Source of the DNA: Acidobacteriaceae bacterium
GTDB taxonomy: Bacteria > Acidobacteriota > Terriglobia > Terriglobales > Acidobacteriaceae
NCBI GenBank assembly: GCA_903642235.1
Contig: CAHJWL010000009.1
Span: forward strand, 62,001-126,000
Direction: 5' to 3'
DNA length: 64,000 nucleotides
Part shown: piece by piece, positions 45,588-59,143 of the stretch
Numbering within the stretch: position 1 is the first letter of the stretch
Layout of the letters: each line of letters begins with the position of its first letter
Translations under genes and position numbers: made by a program
Notes under the pieces: model-generated
The model's database searches: none
What the model saw: only the letters and a program-made list of their open reading frames with translations
What the model was told of the DNA's origin: nothing

Positions 45588-46349
45588 ATGAAGATTTCAG
45601 GAAACTGCATTCTGATCACAGGTGGAACAAGCGGCATCGGCCGCGGCCTGGCTGAGGCTTTGCATGCAAAGGGGAACAAGGTCATCATTGCCGGGCGCCG
45701 GCAGAACCTCCTGGATGAGGTCTCGGGACAGAACCCGGGGATGATTGGCGTGGCTGCGGACCTGGGTAGCAGCGCGGGCGTGGAGGCTTTTGCGGGCGAG
45801 GTGAAGGCTCGGTTCAGCGACCTGAATGTGCTGATTAACAATGCAGGCATCGCGGGTTTGGAGGATTACACCGCCGATTCAGTGGATCTGTCGCGTGCGT
45901 ACGACACGATCCAGACAAACATCAGCAGCGTGGTTCAGCTTTCGGCGGCGCTGCTGCCAACACTTCGGGCGCAGCCACACGCTACGCTGGCCGTGACGAC
46001 CTCTGGTCTGGCGTTTGTGCCCTACCCTCCGGGGCCGGTGTATGGCGCGACGAAGGCTTTCATGCATAACTGGCTGGATGCCTTGCGGGTGCAGCTCCGC
46101 AAAACGCAGGTCGAGGTGCTGGAGATCGCACCACCGTACGTGCAGACGGAGCTTGGTGGTCCACGGCAGGCAAGCGATCCTCGAGCGATGCCGCTTAAGG
46201 ACTACGTCGACGAGGTCGTCCAGATCCTGGAGAGCAACAGCGCCGAGAAGGGCGAGGTGCTGGTCGAGCGCGTGAAGCCGCTCCGCTGGGCGGAGAAGAA
46301 TGGGGAGTACGACAAGTTTCTGGATATGTTTGCCTCGATGCACGACTAG
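45588..46349 (+). CDS. Short-chain dehydrogenase (DltE-like)
   Basis: A 253-residue NAD(P)-dependent oxidoreductase. The Rossmann motif TGGTSGIGRGLAEAL is at 11-25, LINNAGI follows, and the Ser-Tyr-Lys set lies in TTSGLAFVPYPPGPVYGATK. IAPPYVQTELGGP and the C-terminus (ESNSAEKGEVLVERVKPLRW) match the DltE group, named from its location near dlt genes; no dlt operon is here. Substrate unknown. A strong bidirectional terminator follows its stop. Confidence 0.88.
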   Translation: MKISGNCILITGGTSGIGRGLAEALHAKGNKVIIAGRRQNLLDEVSGQNPGMIGVAADLGSSAGVEAFAGEVKARFSDLNVLINNAGIAGLEDYTADSVDLSRAYDTIQTNISSVVQLSAALLPTLRAQPHATLAVTTSGLAFVPYPPGPVYGATKAFMHNWLDALRVQLRKTQVEVLEIAPPYVQTELGGPRQASDPRAMPLKDYVDEVVQILESNSAEKGEVLVERVKPLRWAEKNGEYDKFLDMFASMHD

Positions 46350-46414: not shown

Positions 46415-47971
46415 TTAGTCGAGGGCGTAGATGGCGAGGCCGCTGAGGAGCTTGGGGTAGAAGTCTGTGGACTTCTGGGGCATGACGTCGCCCGAGAGTG
46501 AGACTTCTTTCAGCTGGTCGAGGGTGATGGGTTTGATGAGGAAGGCGAGGTCGGCGGCGCCAGTCTGGACGAGGGTGACGGCTTCGCCGGCGTCGCGGAG
46601 GTAGGAGATGTTGCCGGTGGCCTTGATGCGTTCGGGTGTGAGGCCGAGCAGGTGGTCGAGGAGCACGGTGTGGAGCTCGGCGACCTCAAGCTGGCGCTGC
46701 TTGGGGCTGAGCGGGGCAAGGAGGGGGGCGACGGCTTCGGGCTTTGGCTGGAGGAGGTAGTTGCCAGCGAGGGTGACGGCAACGAAGGCGTGACCGGCCG
46801 TGGCGTTGAGGGCGGCGAGAAGCCGGGTAGCAGCCGCAGCGGCGGTTTCGACGATGGGTGCAGGCGAGACGGTGGGGTCAGTCTCGCCGAGCTGGGTGAC
46901 GGTGTAGAGGGCGGAGGCGCGGGTGAGGAAGTCGGGCGAGGAGAAGCCGCGAGCATTTCCAGACAGACTGGCGCTGCCGTCGGTGGGTCCGCCGTTTTCC
47001 TCAGGCAGGGTCACGGGCGCGCTTCCAAGACCGGTGACGACGCGGTGGGTGGGCAGGATGGTGATGCCGGGGGCGTCCATGTTGACGAAGGTCATCATCA
47101 TGGCGGCCTCGGGGAACGGGGGAGCGGCGAGGTTAGGACGCTGGTCCGAATCGATCAGGTTCGAGGGGGACTCGTCGTTTTCGTCGCGACGCTGGCCGAA
47201 GGGTAGGTTGAGCTGGGCGGAGCGCTCCTTGGCGTAGGCGACAGAGGTCTCGTAGCGGTGGTGACCGTCGGCGATGATGAGCTTCTTATCGCGCATGGCG
47301 GTAACAATGAGGTTGATGAGGGTGGGATCGGTGAGCTTCCAGACGCGGTGGACGACATCGTACTCGTCGGTGATGGTGAGGTCGGGCTGGGTGTGTGCCT
47401 GCCCGTCAGCATCCTGGGCGCCGCCGCTGCCGGCGCCGAAGATGAGCTTTTCGGCGGTGAAGGCGGGGTCGGAGTAGAGCATGTAGATCTGCTCGCAGTA
47501 GGCGCGGGTGGCTTTGAAGAGGGCGAGGCGGTCGGACTTGTGCTTGGGGAAGGTCTGCTCGTGGCGGTAGACGACCTGGTCGGCGTAGTCGTAGAGGTGG
47601 CCGAGGGCGATGAAGCCGCGACGCTCGCGGGTCTCTGAAGTTCCCGGAACGGCGTAGGTCTGCGAGTAACCGTAGAGGGCGGGCTCGGCCTCTTCGCGGA
47701 GGATCTCCTCGCGGCGCCAGCTGGCGAGATAGTTGGCGGCGCGGGTGTAGACGTTGCGGGCGCGCTCGCCGGACGGAAGGAAGTCCTGGGGCTCGGTGTC
47801 GGCGGGCTCGTGCTTGCCGAGGATGACGCGGATGAGGTTGTAGGGACTGAGCTCGTAGTAGCGCTGCTGCATGGCGGACGAGATCTTGTCGTAGGGCTGG
47901 GTGACGACGTCTTCCATGCGGACGCGGCTGGTGTCGTAGCGAAGGGCGCGGAAGGGGTAGATCTGGGCCAT
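46415..47971 (-). CDS. DUF1015 domain protein
   Basis: A 518-residue protein of the DUF1015 family: AQIYPFRALRYDTSRVRMED, VVTQPYDKIS, YDYADQVVYRHEQTFPKHKS, and the central IIADGHHRYETSVAYA, which resembles a ParB/sulfiredoxin-like catalytic HHR motif. Function is unknown, though distant relation to ParB-like serine kinases has been proposed for the fold. Compared with typical members (about 410) it has an insertion around 300-380 rich in Asp, Asn and Gly. The start at 47971 matches the family N-terminus; longer frame upstream is not needed. Confidence 0.85.
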   Translation of the reverse strand: MAQIYPFRALRYDTSRVRMEDVVTQPYDKISSAMQQRYYELSPYNLIRVILGKHEPADTEPQDFLPSGERARNVYTRAANYLASWRREEILREEAEPALYGYSQTYAVPGTSETRERRGFIALGHLYDYADQVVYRHEQTFPKHKSDRLALFKATRAYCEQIYMLYSDPAFTAEKLIFGAGSGGAQDADGQAHTQPDLTITDEYDVVHRVWKLTDPTLINLIVTAMRDKKLIIADGHHRYETSVAYAKERSAQLNLPFGQRRDENDESPSNLIDSDQRPNLAAPPFPEAAMMMTFVNMDAPGITILPTHRVVTGLGSAPVTLPEENGGPTDGSASLSGNARGFSSPDFLTRASALYTVTQLGETDPTVSPAPIVETAAAAATRLLAALNATAGHAFVAVTLAGNYLLQPKPEAVAPLLAPLSPKQRQLEVAELHTVLLDHLLGLTPERIKATGNISYLRDAGEAVTLVQTGAADLAFLIKPITLDQLKEVSLSGDVMPQKSTDFYPKLLSGLAIYALD

Positions 47972-48242
47972 GTGCGGGGGAGTTCCTTTGAGCTGGGTGC
48001 CTTTTCGGATTGTACGGGTGGGTGCAAGGGTGACCGTTGCTCCGGGATAGCGGCGCGCCGCCGAGAGCTGCTTGTCAGCCGCGCTCCGAAGAACAAGGAA
48101 CGCTCCCGAGTAAGTCACCGGGAAAGAAAAGCATCCGGGGTCGGAGATGGGAGTCTATCTAGACAGACCTGCAGGTACGTGTTGCGCTGCAGTGACTTGG
48201 CTGGTTGCCGGTTCTATCAGTGAAGCGGATGGGGAGTAGACG

Positions 48243-49823
48243 TTGGCGGATGAGCACGCGGAATGGAAACCTAAGTTCAACCCGTGGTTGATTGCGGCTA
48301 CGGTAGCACTGGCGGCCTTTATGGAGGTGTTGGATACCTCGATTGCCAACGTGGCGCTGCCACATATCTCCGGCAATCTCGGAGCGAGTCAGGACCAGGG
48401 AACGTGGGTGTTGACAAGCTACCTGGTCTCGAATGCAATCGTTCTGCCGCTGGGCGGGTGGGCGTCCAGCGTCATCGGGCGTAGGAACTTCTTTCAGCTC
48501 TGCATTGTGATCTTTACGGTTTCAAGTTTTCTCTGCGCGATCTCACCCAGCCTGCCGATCCTGCTGCTCGCGCGGGTGTTGCAAGGCATTGGCGGCGGCG
48601 GTCTGCAGCCGATGGCGCAGGCTATCATGGCGGACTCGTTCGAGCCGAAGAAGCGTGGGCAGGCATTTGCGCTGTATGGTCTGGTCGCGGTGCTTGCGCC
48701 ATCGATCGGGCCGACGTTGGGTGGATGGATCACCGATAACTACTCGTGGCGATGGATCTTTTACATCAATCTTCCAATCGGCCTTCTGGCGCTGCTTCTG
48801 GTACAGCGCATGGTGCAGGACCCGCCGTGGATCAAGGCTGACAGATCGAATCTGTTCCGGCTCGATTACGTCGGGCTTGGATTCCTGACGCTGGCGATGG
48901 GCGGCCTGCAGATCGCGCTTGATAAGGGTGAGGAGAACGACTGGTTTGCCAGCAATTTCATCCGTAGCTTTGCGCTCATGTTTGCCATCGGGATAGCCGG
49001 ATTCATCTATTGGGAGTGGAAGTCAAAGGCTCCGCTGATGAATCTCAAGCTCTTCAAGTTCAGAAACTTTGCGATCTGCTGCTTCCTGATGAGCCTTGTA
49101 GGCGGTGTGCTGAATGCATCCACGGTGTTACAGCCGCAGTTCCTGCAGGCCTTGCTGGGGTATACGGCGACGAACGCAGGCAAGGCGCTCACGGCCGGAG
49201 GCATTGCGCTGGTGATTGTTATGCCGGCTGCCGGCATTCTGACGGGTAAGTTCAGCGCGCGCAATCTGGCGGCGGCCGGCTTCGTCTTCTTCGCCTGCTC
49301 GTTCTACTACGCGGCAACGCATACGACGCTGCAGATGAGCTTCGGCTTTGCATCGTTCCTGCGGGTGCTGCAGATGCTGCCGATTCCGTTCTGTTTCATC
49401 TCGATCACAAATGCTGCGTATGTGGGTCTGCCGCGTGAGGCGAGCAACCAGGTCTCGGGCATCATCAACTTCATGCGGAACGTGGGCGGAAGCATCATGA
49501 TTGCGATCACGGGCGCGGCGGTGACGAATCGGGGGCTGTTTCATCAGGCGAGGCTGCAGGAGTCGATGCGGATGACGAATCCAGTCTTTGCCGAGCGGGC
49601 GCAGGGTCTCGCTGGAGCGCTCACGACGAGCGGAGGCGGGGCACAGGGCATGGGGGCGGCGCAGGCTTCCATCTACCAGCAACTGCAGCAGCAGGCAGGC
49701 GCGCTGGGCTACTCGGACATCTACATGGCGTTGTGCTGGATGAGCTGCGGGATGATTGCCCTGGCATTTCTGCTGAACAAGAACAAGCCCGGGGACGCGC
49801 CGAAGGATGCGGCCGCCCACTAG
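48243..49823 (+). CDS. MFS multidrug exporter (DHA2/EmrB-QacA family)
   Basis: A 526-residue polytopic transporter with about 14 membrane helices. Helix 1 carries FMEVLDTSIANVALPHISG, the DHA2 hallmark; WVLTSYLVSNAIVLPLGGWA and LLLARVLQGIGGGGLQPMAQ (motif C-like) follow, with an RG-R-N motif after helix 2 (VIGRRNFFQ). Such proteins pump drugs or anions against the proton gradient, often with a periplasmic adaptor, but no HlyD-type gene is beside it. The start is TTG at 48243, with GGGGAG 7 bases upstream; no ATG gives the complete first helix. Confidence 0.9.
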   Translation: MADEHAEWKPKFNPWLIAATVALAAFMEVLDTSIANVALPHISGNLGASQDQGTWVLTSYLVSNAIVLPLGGWASSVIGRRNFFQLCIVIFTVSSFLCAISPSLPILLLARVLQGIGGGGLQPMAQAIMADSFEPKKRGQAFALYGLVAVLAPSIGPTLGGWITDNYSWRWIFYINLPIGLLALLLVQRMVQDPPWIKADRSNLFRLDYVGLGFLTLAMGGLQIALDKGEENDWFASNFIRSFALMFAIGIAGFIYWEWKSKAPLMNLKLFKFRNFAICCFLMSLVGGVLNASTVLQPQFLQALLGYTATNAGKALTAGGIALVIVMPAAGILTGKFSARNLAAAGFVFFACSFYYAATHTTLQMSFGFASFLRVLQMLPIPFCFISITNAAYVGLPREASNQVSGIINFMRNVGGSIMIAITGAAVTNRGLFHQARLQESMRMTNPVFAERAQGLAGALTTSGGGAQGMGAAQASIYQQLQQQAGALGYSDIYMALCWMSCGMIALAFLLNKNKPGDAPKDAAAH

Positions 49824-50129
49824 GGGTTCAGAACGAGCTCTTATTTCGCAGTCTCTCGGGGCGTAGCGACGCGGCATGCGGAATGCCTGGTTGCACTGCA
49901 AACCGGCCTGGCTCAAAGGCTTGAGTACCTGCGTTTTGATAGGGCGACGGCACGGTGCACTCTGTTGGGGCACAAAAGGCGACTCGGGGTGTAGTCTGCG
50001 GGCAGGTGGCTCAGATTGGAGCGTTCCCGTGGCAGCATAGGGCGGGGTGAGCTGAAGAACGTACAGGCTTCGGTGGGGATCGCGACGACTGCCGAAAAGA
50101 ATACCGTCGCGAGTAGGCCGGGCCAGAGC
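49824..50129. other. Intergenic region without a gene
   Basis: About 305 bases between the exporter and the first VWFA gene. I see no coding frame with protein-like composition, no repeat and no RNA gene. The frame of the downstream gene is open back to a TTG at 50016, so part of this could be coding if that start is used. Confidence 0.35.
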
Positions 50130-51227
50130 ATGTGTGACGCACGAGAAGTATTTGGAGCGAAGAGCGCAAAGAGCCGGGTTACTCGCTGGGCGGTGCTCCT
50201 GGCATTTCTTGCCGGGCTGCTGATGACCGGGGCCCTGAGCCGCAGTGCATCCGCGCAGGAGAATCCGCTGGGCCAGGTCACGACCGATCCAGCGCCGCCC
50301 AAGCCGAAGTCAGCCGAAGAGCGGAAGCCGGTGGTGGACGGGACTGGACCTTCTGGAACGAATGCCGCGGAGCTGGCAACCAGTCGCAAGAACTCGCGGA
50401 TTCGTGTCGACGTGAATATGGTTCTGGTGCCGATGACGGTAACGGACCCGATGAATCGTCTGGTGACGGGGCTTGAGCGCGAGAACTTCCAGGTCATCGA
50501 AAACAACATGGTCCAGCAGGTGAAGAGCTTCTCCGTAGAAGATGCTCCCGTGTCGATCGGAATCGTCTTTGATCTGAGTGGGAGCATGAGCTCGAAGTTC
50601 GCCAGGGCGCGCAAGGCGCTGAGTGAGTTTCTGCGGACAAGTAATCCGCAGGACGAATACTTCGTCGTCGGCTTCAATGACCGGCCGGCGGTGATCGTTG
50701 ATTTCACCAGCGATGTCGAGGATGTCGAGGCGCGCATGGTCATGCTGAAGCCGGCGAACCGCACAGCGCTGATCGATGCGATCTACCTGGGCGCGAACAA
50801 GCTGCGGCAGGCCAAGTATGACCGCAAGGCGCTGCTGATTATCTCGGACGGCGGCGACAACCGCAGCCGCTATACGGAAAATGAGCTGCGGCGCGTGGTG
50901 AAGGAGAGCGACATGCAGCTCTACTCGATCGGCATTTTCGACCAGTACGCACCCACGCAGGAAGAGCAGCTGGGGCCGCTGCTTCTGACAGACATCTGCG
51001 AGATGACGGGCGGGCGCATGTTTCGGGTGTCGGATGTGGGCGATATGGGCGATATCGCGACGCGCATCTCAGCAGAGCTGCGGAACCAGTACGTGATCGG
51101 GTACCGGCCGAACAATATCAAGCATGACGGGAACTGGCGTAAATTGAAGGTGCGACTGCTGCCGCCGCCGGGTCTACCGCTGCTGGCTGTGCACTTTCGC
51201 CAGGGGTACTATGCACCGTCGGACTAG
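50130..51227 (+). CDS. Secreted VWFA domain protein, acidobacterial type (first of pair)
   Basis: About 365 residues with an N-terminal export helix (TRWAVLLAFLAGLLMTGALS) ending near SASAQ. The mature part has a short beta domain (RIRVDVNMVLVPMTVTDPMN, then LERENFQVIENN, the usual pre-VWA segment of the acidobacterial VWFA-related family) and a von Willebrand A domain with an intact MIDAS, DLSGSM, and ISDGGDN. The C-terminus ends RQGYYAPSD. MIDAS residues suggest metal-dependent ligand binding outside the cell. The start is uncertain: ATG at 50130 is used, but the frame is open to 50016. It overlaps the next gene by 17 bases. Confidence 0.88.
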   Translation: MCDAREVFGAKSAKSRVTRWAVLLAFLAGLLMTGALSRSASAQENPLGQVTTDPAPPKPKSAEERKPVVDGTGPSGTNAAELATSRKNSRIRVDVNMVLVPMTVTDPMNRLVTGLERENFQVIENNMVQQVKSFSVEDAPVSIGIVFDLSGSMSSKFARARKALSEFLRTSNPQDEYFVVGFNDRPAVIVDFTSDVEDVEARMVMLKPANRTALIDAIYLGANKLRQAKYDRKALLIISDGGDNRSRYTENELRRVVKESDMQLYSIGIFDQYAPTQEEQLGPLLLTDICEMTGGRMFRVSDVGDMGDIATRISAELRNQYVIGYRPNNIKHDGNWRKLKVRLLPPPGLPLLAVHFRQGYYAPSD

Positions 51228-52335
51228 ATGGGCTTCTGTGGCGTTATTTTTGACGCTGCTGGGGTACGGGGTTTGCGCGCCGGCTCAAAGTGCGGCTCAG
51301 GGACAAAGTGGGCAGCAGCCTTCCTTGACGGTCGATCGCGATCCGGTTGAGTCTCCCGACCCCGATCTTCCCTCGCCGGCAGCAGCGACCCAGACCCAGC
51401 CTACGGGCCAGACAGCGCAGGAGCTGGCACGGGAGAACGGCCGCTACACGCTGCGGCAGGATGCGTATGAGGTCCGGCTGAACGCGACAGTGATCGATGG
51501 CAGTGGCCGATCGATCCTGGACCTCACGAAGGATGCCTTCCATGTCTACGAAGACGGCGTGCCGCAGACAATCGGCTCTTTCCGGCATGAGGATCTGCCG
51601 GTCTCGCTGGGAATCCTGATTGACAGCTCCGGGTCGATGTACGACAAGAAGCAGGCGGTTGAACAGGCGTCGCTCAACCTGATCAAGCTGTCGAATCCGC
51701 AGGATGAGGCGTTCCTGGTGGATTTTTCCTGGGAGGCGTTCATCGACCAGGACTTTACCAGCGACATCAACAAGCTGCAGCAGGGGCTCGGCTACATCAA
51801 GGCAAGCGGCGGCACGGCGATGTATGACGCGCTTGTAGCCAGCGCGGACTACCTGGCGAAGAACGCAAAGAAGCCGAAGCAGGTGCTGCTGGTCGTCACG
51901 GACGGTGAAGATAATGCGTCCAGCGCGACGCTCGAGCAGGCGATTCGCAAGATTCAGGATCTGGATGGGCCGGTTATTTACTGCATCGGCCTGCTGTTCG
52001 GGTCGGATACGGACAAGCGTGAGGCGCGCCATGCGCAGCGCGTCCTGCAGACCTTGAGCGACCAGACGGGCGGGCTCTCCTACTTCCCGAAGTCGGTGAA
52101 AGAGGTCGATGCGATCACGGCGGAGGTTGCGCAGGATATCCGGACGCAGTACTCGATTGCCTATCGGTCGACGAAGTCGCCCACGCTCGGCGGCTATCGA
52201 CAGATCCACGTCGATGCGAAGGAGAAGGGCTACAGCAAGCTGCAGGTGCGAACGCGGACTGGTTATTACCCGAAGGTGGCGGCCGACAGCGAGGCCGCGC
52301 CACCCGCGATGGGAAGTGGAAGCGGACGAAAGTAG
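51211..52335 (+). CDS. Secreted VWFA domain protein, acidobacterial type (second of pair)
   Basis: A 374-residue paralogue of the preceding protein, with the same layout: an export helix ending near CAPAQSA (22-28), a Pro/Gln-rich spacer, a beta segment (YEVRLNATVIDGSGRSILDL, then AFHVYEDG), and a VWA domain with MIDAS D138-S-S140-G-S142 and VTDGEDN. The C-terminus reads RTRTGYYP, matching RQGYYAP in its neighbour. The 17-base overlap with the upstream gene means the two are translated together, which suggests they act together, perhaps as a heterodimeric surface binding module. No ligand is known. Confidence 0.9.
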   Translation: MHRRTRWASVALFLTLLGYGVCAPAQSAAQGQSGQQPSLTVDRDPVESPDPDLPSPAAATQTQPTGQTAQELARENGRYTLRQDAYEVRLNATVIDGSGRSILDLTKDAFHVYEDGVPQTIGSFRHEDLPVSLGILIDSSGSMYDKKQAVEQASLNLIKLSNPQDEAFLVDFSWEAFIDQDFTSDINKLQQGLGYIKASGGTAMYDALVASADYLAKNAKKPKQVLLVVTDGEDNASSATLEQAIRKIQDLDGPVIYCIGLLFGSDTDKREARHAQRVLQTLSDQTGGLSYFPKSVKEVDAITAEVAQDIRTQYSIAYRSTKSPTLGGYRQIHVDAKEKGYSKLQVRTRTGYYPKVAADSEAAPPAMGSGSGRK

Positions 52336-52504
52336 CGGCTTCAGTCTCTCCCGCGAACGGCACGTTACCGGCGCTCGCTCATGGGAAGAAAGCGCTTGCG
52401 AGCCGGCAGGGCGACAGGTATAAACACCTCATTCTTTCTTCTCCAGCGGCTCTGCGTGCGTCGAGCAGGGCGACTGGCTGAAGCTGTCGGACTGCTCTCT
52501 CGCC

Positions 52505-54538
52505 ATGTCGCCATCTCAGCACGTCCAGAAGACCAGCCGACGAGCCCACCCCCGGGTACGTCTTTTGATCGGGCTATTCCTCGCGGTATTCTTCGGGCTC
52601 TGTGCGGGACTGCCCGCGGCCGCTACGAAGGTTGAGTCCGTTCCGGACTGGGTGAAAGCCGCCGCATCACAGACGCTGCCGAAATACTCTGACCGAACCA
52701 ACGCAGTGGTGCTTCGCGATGACAGAACTGTGTCTGTCGGAGCGGACGGGCGAGCGACCGAGCACCGCCGGCGCGTCGTGAAGATCCTTCGCCCGCAGGG
52801 CCGTGAGGATGCCCGCATCTTTCTCCCCTTCGACTCCGAGACCAAGCTGACGGATCTGCATGTCTGGAGCATCGGACCTGATGGTCACGAGTACACTCTC
52901 CGGGACAAGGAGATCGGGGAGGTGGGTTTTCCCGGACAGGGCAGCCTCTATATGGATCTGCATGCACGGGTTGCCGAGGCTCCAGGGCGGGATCCGGGCG
53001 GCATTGTGGCCTATGAGTACGACCAGCGCTCGCATGCGTATGTGAACGAGACCACATGGCACTTTCAGAGCGAAATTCCTGCTCTCGCGCAGAGTTTTAC
53101 GCTGGAACTACCGGCCGGTTACAGCTTCGGCTCGGTGTGGTCGCACCATGAGCCAGTGAAGCCGGCGGATCTGGAACATATGCGCTGGCGCTGGGAGCTG
53201 AAGGATGTTCCCGCGATCGACCTGGACGATATGGCATACACGCCAGATGAGGCGGCTCTGGCAGGCCGTGTCACCGTGCACTACGCCGGTTCAGCCACGG
53301 CTGCACCGGTCGGCGATACATGGAAGAGTGTGGGGCAGTGGTACCGGACGCTGGAGTCCAACCGACTGGACGCAACCCCGGAGATCGCGGCCAAGGCGAA
53401 GGATCTCGCGGGCGCCTCGCCCGACTTCTACACGCGGGTGGAGCCGGTGGCGGAGTTCGTGCAGCGGCAGATCCGCTACTTCGTCATCGAGATGGGAATC
53501 GGCGGCTACCAACCACACGCCGCGGCGGAGATCTTCCGCAATCGCTATGGCGACTGCAAGGACAAGGCGACGCTGCTCTCGGCGATGCTGTCGTCAATCG
53601 GCGTGCACTCCGCGCTGATGATGGTCGATGACCGGCGCGGCGCGATTGATCCAAAGGCGCCGTCTATTCTGGCCGATCACATGGTCACGGCGATCGAAGT
53701 TCCAGAGGGGTACCGGTCGCCGAAGTTGCGGAGCGTCATTACCGCGGCCTCGGGCAAGCGGTACCTCATCTTCGATCCCACATGGGAGAAGACGCCGTTC
53801 GGACAGCTGGAACATGAGCTGCAAGGAAGCTACGGTGTGCTGATGGAAGGGGACCAGAGCGAGATTGTGGCCCTTCCCGTACTCTCTCCGGATCTGAACT
53901 CGATCCGCCGCTCGGCGACCTTCCGGCTGACTGCCGAAGGTGTGCTGCAGGGACGGGTGACAGAGAAGCGATACGGCGACTCCGCCTCCATGCGTCGCTA
54001 CCTCTATGAAAGAGAGGACGCGCAGCAGCAGGAGCAGTTCCTTGGCCGAGTGCTCCGCCAGGACTTTGCAAGCTTCTCTGTCGCCGACTTCAAACAGGAA
54101 AATCTCGGTGCGCTGCACCAGGATCTGACGACGAGCTTCGACCTGACAGCGCAGCACTTCGCGCGCCAGATGGGTCAGATGTTGATGGTGCGGCCGCGTG
54201 TCTTTGGCACCGAGGATCTGCGACCCAGCGTGCGGCGCCAGCCGGGCCCGCGGCAGGTGCCGATCGACCTGGTGGAGACCGTGCAGGCCCAGGACGACTT
54301 CGAGATCAAGCTGCCGGCCGGCTACACGGCCGAGGAGTTGCCGGAACCTGTCTCTCTGACGCTCGACTTTGCAAGCTACGAAAGTGCAACAACGCTGCTG
54401 GGAGACACCCTGCACTTTCACCGGTCGTATACCGTCCGGCAGGTTCTGCTGCCGGCCGAGAGATTTGCCGACCTTGAACGGCTTGCCGCCGTCATTGCCA
54501 CGGATGAACAGAGCAATGCGATTTTGAAGAAGCTTTGA
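52505..54538 (+). CDS. DUF3857 / transglutaminase-like secreted protein (active-site intact)
   Basis: A 677-residue exported protein: signal helix at about 19-40, an N-terminal DUF3857 beta domain (about 60-230), a transglutaminase-core domain with Cys351 in RYGDCKDKATLLSAML, His392 in ADHMVTAIEV and Asp424 in IFDPTWE, and a C-terminal beta domain (about 470-677). The complete Cys-His-Asp triad means it could act as a protease or transglutaminase-like enzyme on peptides or wall material in the periplasm. It is followed 25 bases later by a paralogue lacking the triad, and preceded by the VWFA pair. Confidence 0.9.
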   Translation: MSPSQHVQKTSRRAHPRVRLLIGLFLAVFFGLCAGLPAAATKVESVPDWVKAAASQTLPKYSDRTNAVVLRDDRTVSVGADGRATEHRRRVVKILRPQGREDARIFLPFDSETKLTDLHVWSIGPDGHEYTLRDKEIGEVGFPGQGSLYMDLHARVAEAPGRDPGGIVAYEYDQRSHAYVNETTWHFQSEIPALAQSFTLELPAGYSFGSVWSHHEPVKPADLEHMRWRWELKDVPAIDLDDMAYTPDEAALAGRVTVHYAGSATAAPVGDTWKSVGQWYRTLESNRLDATPEIAAKAKDLAGASPDFYTRVEPVAEFVQRQIRYFVIEMGIGGYQPHAAAEIFRNRYGDCKDKATLLSAMLSSIGVHSALMMVDDRRGAIDPKAPSILADHMVTAIEVPEGYRSPKLRSVITAASGKRYLIFDPTWEKTPFGQLEHELQGSYGVLMEGDQSEIVALPVLSPDLNSIRRSATFRLTAEGVLQGRVTEKRYGDSASMRRYLYEREDAQQQEQFLGRVLRQDFASFSVADFKQENLGALHQDLTTSFDLTAQHFARQMGQMLMVRPRVFGTEDLRPSVRRQPGPRQVPIDLVETVQAQDDFEIKLPAGYTAEELPEPVSLTLDFASYESATTLLGDTLHFHRSYTVRQVLLPAERFADLERLAAVIATDEQSNAILKKL

Positions 54539-54563
54539 CCACTTTCCTACGCCAAGGATCTGT

Positions 54564-56573
54564 ATGCCGATATCACGACTTGCCGTCTCTCTGACCCTGG
54601 TAGCCTGCCTTGCGGGATCGATGCGATCAGCATGGGGCGCCGATCCATGGACTCCGCCCACACCGGAGGAGCTCTCCATGACTTCATCCCCGCAGGCGCC
54701 GGGAGCGCGGGCAATTTATCTCTTCCGCGAGCAGATCACCGAGGATGCGCTGCACATGTACAGCGTGCACGTCCGAATCAAGGTGCTGACCGAGGCCGGA
54801 AAGGACCTGGCCAACGTGGAGCTCAGCTACGCGCATGGTGGTCGGGGCCAGCTGAACCTCGATGAGGTAGGCGGCCGGACGATCCATCCGGATGGAACTG
54901 TGGTGGCCTTCACAGGAAAGCCTTATGAGAAGCTGGTCGGCAAGGTCAACGAAGCAAAGTACATGGCCAAGGTCTTCAGCCTGCCGGATGTCACCGTGGG
55001 CAGCATCCTCGAATATCACTACAAGCTGCGCTACGACGATCACTACTACATCTCACCGGACTGGTATATCCAGGAGGATCTCTTTACCCGCAAGGTCCAT
55101 TTCCTCTGGAAACCGACAGATGCCGAGTTGCTGACAAACGACGACCGCGGCCAGCTCACCAGCCACGTCGCCTGGACGCCGATTCTGCCGGCAGGCATCG
55201 ACGTGCACCAGGAGCGCGGGGCAAACGGTCGGCTGACACTGGAACTCTCGGCCAACGACATTCCTGCGATCGCGCGGGAAGAGCACATGCCGCCCTTGAA
55301 CAGCTTCACCTATCGCGTTCTTTTCTACTACACGCCCTACCGCGGAATGGACGATTACTGGAAGAACGAAGGCAAGTACTGGGCAAGGCGGCGGGACAAG
55401 TTTATCGGGCCCGGACCCGCGGTTCGAGCAGCCGTGCAGGAGATGGTGAAGGGCAGCGATGCTCCGGAGCAGAAGCTGCGCACGATCTATGCCGCAACGC
55501 AGAAGCTCGAGAACTCAGATCTGACGCGAGGACACTCCGCAAGCGAGGACAAGGCGCAGGGTCTCGGGGAGATTCATACGACCGACGATATTCTGCGTCG
55601 GAAGCGGGGCTCCGGCGACCAGTTGACGGCATTGTTTGTAGCCATGGCGCGCGCCGCGGGAATGAAGGCTTACCTGATGGGCGTGACGAACCGGGAGCGC
55701 AGCTTCTTCTACCCGGCCTATCTCAGCACACAACAGCTGGATGACGATATCGCGATCGTGAACTATGACGGCAAGGATCACTTCTATGATCCAGGCGTAC
55801 GCTTCTGCCCCTTTGAACATCTCGCCTGGCAGCACACGCGAACCTCCGGCATTCGGCAGGTGGAAGGCGGTGCCGTCCTGACTGAGACCAGGACGGAGGC
55901 GTACAAGACATCGCAGTTGAAGCGGGTGGCCGATCTGACGATGGATGACCATGGCGTAGTGAGCGGATCGATTCTGGTTACGTACTCCGGAATACCGGCA
56001 ATGCGCTGGCGCCAGCTCTCGGTGAGTTCGGATGAAGCGGCGGTGCGGCACGATCTGGTGGAACAGGTGGGGTCGCTGCTGCCGGGCGGTATGCAGCTGA
56101 CGATCGCGTCGATCTCGGCTCTGGACGACTATGAGAAGCCGCTGATCGTGAAGTTCAATGTAAATGGACCGATCGGATCACCTGCCGGAAAGCGCTTGCT
56201 GGTGCCTGGCGCGCTGTTTGAAAGCAATCGCAGGACTATGTTTTCGAGTGAGAAGCGGCAGCAGGCAGTGGACTTCGACTACGGTCTGCTGATTCAGGAC
56301 GCGGTTCGCATCAAGCTGCCAAAGACACTGGCTGTTGAGTCTCTGCCGAACGAGGCAACGGCCGACTTCCAGAAGTTAGCTGGCTTCAACATGACTGCCG
56401 AGAACACTGCTGGAGCCTTCACGATGCGCCGCAACTACGCGCTGGGGGAGTTCTTCTTCAAGCCGTCGGAGTACACGGATCTGCGCAAGTTCTTTCTCAC
56501 GATGGAGGCCGCCGACCAGCAGAGTGTCGTGCTGAAGCAGGCAGCGCCGGCTGAGTCAAAGGGCGGCCAGTAG
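54564..56573 (+). CDS. DUF3857 / transglutaminase-like protein, triad lost
   Basis: A 669-residue exported paralogue of the preceding protein, with a signal peptide ending near SAWGAD. The DUF3857 domain is present (VHVRIKVLTEAGKDLANVEL, SILEYHYKLRYDDHYYIS). In the transglutaminase core the expected GDCKD is RGSGDQLTALFVAMARAAG: position 351 is Gly instead of Cys. The next His is replaced too (QLDDDIAIVNYDGK), while the Asp region (FYDPGVRF) remains. It is thus probably not a cysteine hydrolase. It may bind or regulate the active partner encoded just before it. Confidence 0.85.
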   Translation: MPISRLAVSLTLVACLAGSMRSAWGADPWTPPTPEELSMTSSPQAPGARAIYLFREQITEDALHMYSVHVRIKVLTEAGKDLANVELSYAHGGRGQLNLDEVGGRTIHPDGTVVAFTGKPYEKLVGKVNEAKYMAKVFSLPDVTVGSILEYHYKLRYDDHYYISPDWYIQEDLFTRKVHFLWKPTDAELLTNDDRGQLTSHVAWTPILPAGIDVHQERGANGRLTLELSANDIPAIAREEHMPPLNSFTYRVLFYYTPYRGMDDYWKNEGKYWARRRDKFIGPGPAVRAAVQEMVKGSDAPEQKLRTIYAATQKLENSDLTRGHSASEDKAQGLGEIHTTDDILRRKRGSGDQLTALFVAMARAAGMKAYLMGVTNRERSFFYPAYLSTQQLDDDIAIVNYDGKDHFYDPGVRFCPFEHLAWQHTRTSGIRQVEGGAVLTETRTEAYKTSQLKRVADLTMDDHGVVSGSILVTYSGIPAMRWRQLSVSSDEAAVRHDLVEQVGSLLPGGMQLTIASISALDDYEKPLIVKFNVNGPIGSPAGKRLLVPGALFESNRRTMFSSEKRQQAVDFDYGLLIQDAVRIKLPKTLAVESLPNEATADFQKLAGFNMTAENTAGAFTMRRNYALGEFFFKPSEYTDLRKFFLTMEAADQQSVVLKQAAPAESKGGQ

Positions 56574-56583
56574 GTCAGATCAC

Positions 56584-58932
56584 TCAGCTGGTCGTCTCGC
56601 TGACCTGCAGAGCATCGATCTTCTGGCTCAGGTCTGCTTCTGCTCGTTGACGCTCAGAGTGCAGCGCGGCGAGGTCTCGACGGAGCGCAGTCAGCGTGTC
56701 CTCCTGCGTGTTGAGCTCGGCGGTGTAGCGCCGGGCGAGGGCGCGCTCTTCGCTGGAACCCTTGAGTGCGGACAGATTGTCGCGGAGACGTTTCTGATCG
56801 TCGACGAGCTGATCGATGGCAGCCTGCTTCTCCCCCAACCGATCATCGACGGAAGTCACGGCGCGCTTCGCGGCGAAGACGGGTTCAAGCTGCTGCAGCA
56901 GCGCGGGACTGGCTTTGGCGTTGTGGAGAAAGAGGGCGAGCTGGTCCTCGCGGGAATCGACCAAGCGGAAGAACTCGTCGAGGCTGTGCCGCTCGCCGAT
57001 GTGGAGGCGCACAGTCTCTTTCGGCCCGGTCACGACGCGGAAGCGATAGGCCGCGGGCGTACTCTCTGTGGGCTTCGGGTCAGAGGTGGGCTGGCCGCCG
57101 TTGCTCTCGAGGGTCCATCCCTGGCGGCGAGGCTGCTCCACGATGACGGTGCGCGGATCAGGAGCGGCGTTTGTGACCAGATACTCGACCTCGGCGATCT
57201 CGGCAGAGGTGGCTTTGAGCACGCCTTTGGAGATAGAAAGGGCAGTCACGCGCCGGGTGTCGCGGCGATCGTCGGCGGTGACGCGGACTGCCTGATCGGC
57301 AGCGTAGGAGAGCAGGCGGCGCTCGCCGGGGTGGACCGTGTCGAGCAGACCCTCGCCGCCAAAGTTGCCGTTTTCGACAATCGTGAAGGACCCGCGATCA
57401 AGGGTGAGCGCGGAGGAGTTGGTGATCCAGAGGGCGCGCAGGGCAACGGGCTCGGACGGTGACCAGAGCGTGACACGCTCGGAGGTAATGGGTATCTGGA
57501 GGATCGGCACCAGGGCCGAGCCGTTGCGCGGGATGGTGACGGGATCGGTGAGGTTGTAGGCGAAGAAGTCGTCGAAGGCGGCGGTGGTGGTGTTGGGGTT
57601 GGTGGAGTTGACGGCGATGGTTTCGTAGGGCTGCATGGGACGGGCGGAGGTGCCATGCGACTGAGAGAGCATTCGGGAGCGGCCGTTCAACGGAATGGAG
57701 CCTACTGTGGCATCTTGTGCCACAGAGACCGTCGCATTGGCTGACCCCATGCCGCCGAGGACTCCACCGGGTGCGCTACCGGCCGATCCGCCCGACATCC
57801 CGCTCATCCCGGCTACGCCGGCGACCTGGGGCGCTGGAGGAGCTGGCGCATCGACGGCCGCGTCATGCGTCTGCGGGGTGAGCTGGGCGTCCTGAGCGAT
57901 GGGGATCTCGGGGCGGCGGGCGTAGATGGGCTGGGCGAGCGGCTGCAGAAAACTCTGCGGGCTGCCGGCGATGAGCGAGAGATGAACGTTGGTCCAGTCC
58001 TCGCCGGTAGTGTTGTCGATCACGGAGAAGCCCTGCACTGTGGCGGTCTGGCCGGCCGAGGAAGGAGCGGGTAGCGTGCCGGTACCCGGCGCAGAGGTGG
58101 GATCGGTAAAGAGGATGCGATAAGTGGACTTCCAGACCGGCACCTCAGACAGGAAGGAGACGCGCAGCTCACGCGGCGCAGAGCCGCCGGCAGGCCCATG
58201 ATCGGTGAGCGCAAGGTGGCGGATACCTTCGGAGCGATTGCGGTCGAGGAGTTCGAAGTAGGTCTTAAGGTCGGTGCGGAGAGGCGAGTCGAGCAGGCGA
58301 ACGACAGTGCTGCTGGTGAGCTCGAGGGTGCGCATGGCGCCGGTGTCAGCGACAACGGTGAGGAAGCGACGCTCCGGCGCGGGTCTGGCGTTTACATCGG
58401 CGGACGGGACGGGACGGAGATCGAGCGAGAGAATGCGTCCAGTGAAGGCAGCCCCCGAGCCGGTGACTTCAATGCGGGCGCCACGCAGCGAGTTGAAGAG
58501 GTCCTGCTCGGTTGGCTGTTCGCCCAGGGAGAGTGGAAGCGCGCGCAGCTGCTGGTCAAGCGGGGTAGTCGAGTTGTAGCCGGCGCCGGTGATGCGGCCG
58601 CCGCCAAGGTCAATGGCGGTGAGCGACTGGAGGGCATCGTTGAGCTGGGTCGAGGTGAGATCAAGCGTGACCGTCTGGTCGCCGGCGACGCGGCCGGTGT
58701 GCTCAAAGAACCCAACCCCATTCTTGTAGAGCGAGACGTGCGTCACAGGGAGATTGGTGGCCTGTGTTCCCGCAGACGAGGAGGCCGCAGCGGATGTGCG
58801 CCGCGGGTGAGAGCCGGGCGCGGCCTGGGCCAGGAGCGGCGTGCGTAGAGGGGTGGCGAGCAGACAGGCAGAGAGGGCGAGAGAACGAGGCGTGCGCAAG
58901 AGGGAACTCCTGAGACCGGTCTGGCAGGGCAT
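56584..58932 (-). CDS. Secreted DUF4139 domain protein
   Basis: A 782-residue exported protein with a hydrophobic signal region (about 14-35), a beta-rich N-terminal domain (VTHVSLYKNGVGFFEHTGRV), a DUF4139-like beta domain (about 230-600, with FSVIDNTTGEDWTNVHLSLI) and a C-terminal coiled coil (about 690-775). A Gly/Ser/Met-rich linker lies near 365-400. DUF4139 proteins are exported and of unknown function; related ones include mucoidy inhibitor-like proteins. It faces the DUF3857 paralogue tail to tail across 10 bases, so it has its own promoter. Confidence 0.8.
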   Translation of the reverse strand: MPCQTGLRSSLLRTPRSLALSACLLATPLRTPLLAQAAPGSHPRRTSAAASSSAGTQATNLPVTHVSLYKNGVGFFEHTGRVAGDQTVTLDLTSTQLNDALQSLTAIDLGGGRITGAGYNSTTPLDQQLRALPLSLGEQPTEQDLFNSLRGARIEVTGSGAAFTGRILSLDLRPVPSADVNARPAPERRFLTVVADTGAMRTLELTSSTVVRLLDSPLRTDLKTYFELLDRNRSEGIRHLALTDHGPAGGSAPRELRVSFLSEVPVWKSTYRILFTDPTSAPGTGTLPAPSSAGQTATVQGFSVIDNTTGEDWTNVHLSLIAGSPQSFLQPLAQPIYARRPEIPIAQDAQLTPQTHDAAVDAPAPPAPQVAGVAGMSGMSGGSAGSAPGGVLGGMGSANATVSVAQDATVGSIPLNGRSRMLSQSHGTSARPMQPYETIAVNSTNPNTTTAAFDDFFAYNLTDPVTIPRNGSALVPILQIPITSERVTLWSPSEPVALRALWITNSSALTLDRGSFTIVENGNFGGEGLLDTVHPGERRLLSYAADQAVRVTADDRRDTRRVTALSISKGVLKATSAEIAEVEYLVTNAAPDPRTVIVEQPRRQGWTLESNGGQPTSDPKPTESTPAAYRFRVVTGPKETVRLHIGERHSLDEFFRLVDSREDQLALFLHNAKASPALLQQLEPVFAAKRAVTSVDDRLGEKQAAIDQLVDDQKRLRDNLSALKGSSEERALARRYTAELNTQEDTLTALRRDLAALHSERQRAEADLSQKIDALQVSETTS

Positions 58933-59143
58933 GCTGCGGTGTTAGACCGTCGCCTGGTCCACTTTGTTCCCGGCAGTTGGCTTCTTTTCGCACAGGAGTG
59001 TGCGCGAGAAAGGCCGTCGCCCGGATCGTCAAGCCCTGGATCGAGGGCGGGAGGAGGAAAGCGGGACGCGCGAAGCTCCCGCGAATGCATTGTTGAATCA
59101 TTCTTCGATGTCGTACTATCTAGTCCGCAGCGAAAGGCTCACG

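Follow-up and report, generated by a model that had tools for sequence, protein, structure and literature searches.

Five genes for large proteins lie side by side at positions 50130 to 58932 of a 64,000-nucleotide stretch of DNA (the window) from an Acidobacteriaceae bacterium (assembly GCA_903642235.1, contig CAHJWL010000009.1; genome of 3.79 Mb in 29 contigs), and the question they raise is whether they constitute one envelope system, as the original prediction had proposed from the sequence alone, or several units that are neighbours in this genome. All five open reading frames (ORFs) were confirmed at the positions first given, and the best explanation of the region is three units: a pair of genes for VWFA proteins with a DUF1015 gene, a DUF4139-like gene, and a two-gene module encoding the DUF3857 proteins TGa and TGd. 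The module is the main subject here, and its best reading, for which we put the probability at roughly 65 percent, is an exported Cys-His-Asp enzyme, TGa, accompanied by a pseudoenzyme partner, TGd.

TGa (677 residues; 52505..54538, forward strand) combines a DUF3857 domain with a transglutaminase-like part, and its dead paralog TGd (669 residues; 54564..56573, forward strand) starts 25 bases past it. Both exceed the cut-off of 24.6 bits for DUF3857 (PF12969; 84.9 bits in TGa, 34.0 in TGd), and both fall just below the cut-off of 23 for Transglut_core (20.8 and 22.9). When the two are aligned, TGa Cys351 (codon 53555..53557, in a GDCKDK motif), His392 (53678-53680) and Asp424 (53774-53776) correspond to TGd Gly351 (55614..55616), Asp394 (55743-55745) and Asp409, all on the forward strand, such that the catalytic triad is present in TGa and reduced to its Asp in TGd. 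Alignment of relatives with the window pair gave the same division, with Cys-His-Asp in all TGa rows and an Asp without the Cys and His in all TGd rows. Cys351 and His392 are invariant across 37 sequences. A wider tally covered 40 loci of relatives, 46 named loci (the named relatives with a TGd alignment being mainly Edaphobacter, Granulicella and other Acidobacteriaceae), the third copy of the window's own genome and the window itself, redundant loci included. In it the Cys was absent at the catalytic column in 100/100 TGd-class ORFs, duplicates and fragments among them (three have a gap there), and the 82 TGa-class entries comprised 75 with Cys-His-Asp, three with Cys-His-Glu (Bacteroidota) and four fragments without the core.

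Export of both proteins is suggested by their leader sequences. In the AlphaFold models, for which the mean predicted local distance difference test score is 90.7 for TGa and 91.9 for TGd, the two share a predicted fold and a common domain order, consisting of an N-terminal signal-like helix, a beta-rich DUF3857 part, a transglutaminase-like core and a C-terminal beta part. The core is predicted to be of the papain-like transglutaminase type, the models matching 3KD4, 3ISR and transglutaminases, and 3KD4 was the top Foldseek match for TGa and TGd alike. The N-terminal part of both models also resembles the lumenal part of an oligosaccharyltransferase subunit, presumably Ost1/ribophorin I, and the N-terminal domain of M1 aminopeptidases.

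To place the pair in relatives, fifteen window genes were mapped by tblastn (E 1e-5) onto 40 loci around DUF3857 genes, each of 11-20 kb, from 39 genomes: 29 from the same genus, taken as the Edaphobacter group as the genome collection defines it (L034-L062), ten further loci (L063-L072) of which nine are from other families and one holds a lone TGd (L066), and one with a TGd or TGd remnant alone (L073). A TGd match was found in 36/49 genus genomes, the window's own included, with G023 carrying a remnant. TGa and TGd occur together in 29/29 same-genus loci, TGd being split in L060, and in the nine other-family loci, where TGd comes first and the ORFs overlap by 1-50 bases in eight and lie 9 bases apart in the ninth (starts picked by script). 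The interruption of TGd in L060 and a split TGa in L161 (E. modestus) and L173 reflect either decay or sequencing error.

Once 13 redundant loci had been set aside, those showing two or more cores had a single live copy in 29/29 cases from the genus, 9/9 from other families, 24/26 of the named ones and the window (1/1). The two named exceptions are L178 and L188, each on a contig that stops within a TGa-like gene, short of the core. The same pattern was apparent more broadly in a survey of 99 genomes drawn across the Acidobacteriota, of which 47 had DUF3857 matches, in tandem in 38/47. Forty of the 47 tandem clusters were fetched, five of the remaining ones being from the genus, and after leaving out the 4/40 in which one member was recognised, a single member carried both Cys and His in 31/36 loci with at least two recognised members, and no member did in five (L257, L261, L263, L264 and L274, the last cut by the contig end). 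Among genomes of the phylum to which a Bacteroidaceae record belongs, taken here to be Bacteroidota, 13/13 loci with two members in view had one live copy, although three of these repeat named loci and the dead member of L296 is weakly aligned. There was no locus in any set with two copies both bearing Cys and His. Arrays of one live copy with two to four dead ones also occur (L177, L184-L187, L190 and L273, with four dead in L186), the dead member of L262 retains the Cys without the His, and the live gene of L258 lies on the opposite strand. A same-strand neighbour within 5 kb was found for 97/124 DUF3857 matches in the 47 Acidobacteriota genomes and for 31/49 in 19 Bacteroidota genomes, three rows having been dropped from the latter as second pieces of one gene. 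Lone copies are mostly live: 9/9 of those examined in Acidobacteriota (from 27, and largely top matches in their genomes, which may bias the count) and 8/10 of those examined in Bacteroidota (from 18). Conserved adjacency, one-sided loss of the catalytic residues and a breadth of two phyla are observed features of the module, and the original call of a Cys-His-Asp enzyme with a dead partner is upheld and extended by the residue alignment, by the 29 genus and nine other-family loci, and by its recurrence in a second phylum.

A tree built from 121 copies groups dead copies of Acidobacteriota and Bacteroidota in its main dead clade, weakly (support 82), and sets other live/dead pairs on branches of their own; the live/dead label requires 5 changes compared with 39.6 in shuffles. 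When long, awkward and near-duplicate rows were taken out by hand, leaving 73 of the 121, three live/dead changes were needed, and the approximately unbiased (AU) test does not reject a single origin of the dead copies (p-AU 0.237). Independent origins of the dead copies are accordingly not claimed. Either way, the live/dead arrangement is old or has arisen repeatedly.

A possible mechanism is that TGa, as a papain-fold transglutaminase-like enzyme, would most likely cleave or transfer bonds of the peptide or isopeptide type, either in the periplasm or at the surface of the cell, and that TGd would most likely bind either TGa or its substrate and thereby activate, target or restrain it, in a role likened to that of the inactive half that completes M16 peptidases. 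The physical partnership, the type of bond and the substrate are here inferred.

Comparison with known systems suggests where such a pair would stand. The sole PDB sequence match at E 0.01 was 3KD4 (BDI_1141, Parabacteroides distasonis), which has the same fold as TGd over most of its length (VIA-align Z 22.4, root-mean-square deviation 5.0, 478 residues aligned). Although 3KD4 is titled a 'putative protease', profile alignment places a Pro at its catalytic Cys (GTPLE compared with GDCKD), and by this alignment it therefore appears to be a dead copy. LapG and HvyA are Cys-His-Asp papain-fold enzymes of the periplasm, as TGa is predicted to be, but to our knowledge neither carries a DUF3857 domain, nor do we know of a dead paralog that governs LapG. 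LapG structures match TGd at Z of about 9 over 130 residues, and the LapG family (BTLCP) is absent from the Pfam matches of TGa and TGd at E up to 0.01, the resemblance observed being in the core fold. HvyA of Caulobacter is reported to control capsule and surface polysaccharide with its triad essential (PMC4241560), and LapG to be governed by LapD (PMC4359373). The best analogy, as opposed to kinship, is with the clam-shell halves of M16 peptidases and with M16B pairs. The M16 enzymes are zinc peptidases of a fold unrelated to the transglutaminase-like one. Their active site is reported to lie typically in one half, with both halves needed (PMC12731061). Pairs of an enzyme and a dead paralog are thus known in other folds, and no description of this one was found: the Pfam description of DUF3857 does not mention live/dead pairing, and none of the matches listed by one open-access library, judged by titles and the starts of abstracts, describes a live/dead DUF3857 pair. 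Earlier literature names a DUF3857-type gene beside lolA and 3KD4 as a fold match.

Read in this way, two annotations of unknown function would become a testable two-protein enzyme, a deposited 'putative protease' structure is suggested to be a pseudoenzyme, and soil bacteria that are hard to study gain a defined target, in a module that is widespread in Acidobacteriota and Bacteroidota and more general than was originally seen.

Several observations weigh against an enzyme with a dedicated pseudoenzyme partner. A tandem duplication in which one copy then became inactive could suffice to make the two genes adjacent, with no partnership between them, and in four loci of one Acidobacteriota family (f26; L257, L261, L263 and L264) the tandem copies are all dead and lack the Cys. 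Nine dead survey members have a gap, rather than another residue, at the Cys column and show no GDC-like motif. A His stands at the His column in 5/100 TGd entries by profile alignment and in none of the MAFFT rows, this column being aligned less surely than that of the Cys. Live copies also occur on their own, so not every live member needs a dead partner. Lone dead copies are also seen, one in the genus (L066, in a genome carrying the full pair elsewhere) and two in Bacteroidota (L303 and L311). Further, a partial-Mantel mirror-tree analysis of 17 same-genus loci gave no sign that TGa and TGd co-evolve over and above the species signal (partial r 0.12, p 0.226, or 0.27, p 0.097, with two controls instead of three), while TGa against the unrelated neighbour M17 gave 0.72.

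Of the other explanations, the boldest goes further than a simple pair, and we regard it as tentative, with the odds against it: the DUF3857 enzymes of both phyla may be an ancient obligate heteromer of one live and one to four dead paralogs. If so, the dead paralogs would be interchangeable substrate receptors or regulators, each locus would encode one enzyme with its set of adaptors, and the only crystal structure found for the family, 3KD4, would represent an adaptor and not a protease.

A distinctly less probable explanation separates the functions of TGd and TGa: TGd would be either a binding protein in its own right or a duplicate in slow decay, and the adjacency would be only a trace of tandem duplication. 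It draws on the negative mirror-tree result, the all-dead loci of one family and the lone dead copies. However, adjacency persists despite a gene order that is reversed between groups and a different place in the window's genome, and decay is unlikely because full-length genus TGd orthologs share approximately 46-57 percent identity, 9 columns are invariant among 54 sequences of two phyla, and the fold is confidently predicted.

A further explanation concerns the genomic place of the pair, which in the genus is commonly behind cellulose secretion (bcs) genes. A bcs gene lies upstream of TGa on the same strand in 22/29 genus loci (BcsC in 13, a fused BcsA-PilZ-BcsB in 8 and BcsQ in 1). The same is true of a small number of named loci that were not among the genus loci drawn, L169 of Granulicella sapmiensis being one. 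The usual downstream genes are an uncharacterised opposite-strand gene, a flippase-like gene, argS and an M17 peptidase gene. The order BcsQ-BcsAB-BcsZ-BcsC of the Acidisarcina polymorpha bcs locus is as seen upstream of the pair in relatives, and the word transglutaminase is absent from the main text of the paper describing it (PMC9693552). That TGa and TGd are a cellulose secretion accessory in Edaphobacter, since moved away in the window's genome, nevertheless seems improbable. Its linkage to bcs is matched downstream by that to the housekeeping gene argS (also 22/29), so inherited gene order can explain the adjacency. Where BcsC has no match, in six genomes (L035, L036, L040, L044, L046 and L062), the pair still stands behind BcsQ and fused BcsAB, and cellulose export there may use another channel, but across genomes the pair shows no significant association with bcs (Fisher p 0.74 with BcsC, 0.058 with BcsB and 0.42 with either). 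There were no bcs genes in the ten loci L063-L072, and no neighbour family recurred outside the genus set among 20 flanking genes of 12 loci, the neighbours varying by locus. The window's own genome has an intact cellulose locus (L200; G000:C3:38000-57900, with BcsAB, BcsZ and BcsC) without the pair, in which the stop of bcsC and that of the next gene are 7 bases apart; in L202, L203 and L207, from genomes without a TGd match, the same uncharacterised gene follows bcsC after 0.3-1.3 kb. Since the pair is missing from its usual place after bcs in its own genome, its neighbours in the window look to be the outcome of a move of the pair. No repeats marking an insertion were found around TGa-TGd in the window.

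The surroundings of the pair in relatives bear equally on the five-gene proposal. Homologs of VWFA-1, VWFA-2 and the DUF4139, DUF1015, MFS, MarR and YceI genes were found in 0/40 of the relatives' DUF3857 loci, in which the sole other window-gene matches were two weak ones to the upstream ORF at 45588, and distant VWFA paralogs (29-30 percent identity) were seen in two of the 46 named loci (L178 and L196). The proposal that all five genes form one envelope system, with ligand binding by the VWFA proteins, action on peptides by the DUF3857 pair and a structural role for the DUF4139 protein, can draw on adjacency and leaders in the window's genome and on the nearness of VWFA and DUF4139 genes in 5/16 of the relatives' DUF4139 loci, but it is very improbable given the 0/40 result, the differing genome shares of its parts (DUF4139 in 20/60, VWFA-1 in 46/50 and TGd in 36/49), the intervening pyridoxal-phosphate enzyme genes in three of those five loci, and the membership of the named-locus VWFA cases in a family with 13 matches in the window's genome. 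The gene-order comparison that the original prediction called for thus went against it, and synteny rules out the five genes as a conserved unit in these relatives. The separate placement of the VWFA, DUF4139 and DUF3857 genes in relatives indicates that they are juxtaposed only locally in the window, and that the five-gene system, tempting as it is, reflects an accidental arrangement of genes.

The details of the layout as first described, namely a 17-base overlap of the VWFA genes and the 25 bases between the DUF3857 genes, were reproduced, and all five proteins have a hydrophobic leader at the N-terminus (judged by eye on the translations). TGa starts 169 bases past VWFA-2, a gap in which RNA folding is not above that of shuffles (z -0.78). 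Over 49800-59100 no promoter-like sites were predicted, and terminator-like sites numbered 7 compared with 5.0 in shuffles, with none in the VWFA-2/TGa gap. A plasmid search returned no match. Among the family labels first assigned, those of VWFA and DUF3857 hold with scores above the cut-offs, while that of DUF4139 is weaker.

The gene so labelled (56584..58932, reverse strand) is convergent with TGd, lies 10 bases past it and encodes a predicted exported protein that scores 24.1 bits against the cut-off of 31.8 for DUF4139 (PF13598) and 37.4 against 112.6 for the MuiA family (TIGR02231), so that by these scores it would be a distant DUF4139/MuiA relative only. Where VWFA genes lie near its counterparts, two genes separate them in three of the five loci (L100, L101 and L109), with families, read from the L101 copies, of pyridoxal-phosphate enzymes. 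Judged by titles, none of the papers on DUF4139/MuiA in one open-access library concerns its function.

VWFA-1 (50130..51227, forward strand) and VWFA-2 (51211..52335, forward strand) are neighbours of TGa-TGd in the window that lie outside the system of the pair. Both are included in TIGR03436 'acidobact_VWFA', with scores of 235.6 and 196.2 bits against a cut-off of 81.25; the 13 matches in the window's genome are all above this cut-off. By eye, both show the pattern D-x-S-x-S ... T ... D, which we take to be that of the metal ion-dependent adhesion site. No paper naming TIGR03436 proteins was found in one open-access library. The VWFA-1 matches in 46/50 genus genomes were at E 1e-60, and 52/61 genomes of the class have a match at E 1e-80. 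VWFA-2 directly follows VWFA-1 in 39/40 genus loci (L114-L153), the contig ending in the fortieth, and a divergent DUF1015 gene, at 46415..48118 on the reverse strand in the window, lies upstream in 35/40, some of the other five being at contig ends. The overlapping VWFA pair with its divergent DUF1015 neighbour is thus a separate conserved unit. The EmrB-type MFS gene that stands between DUF1015 and VWFA-1 in the window (48243-49823) was not found in the 40 VWFA loci of relatives. A glutamate racemase gene and a GerMN-domain gene also lie near the VWFA pair, joined in relatives by an amidase gene.

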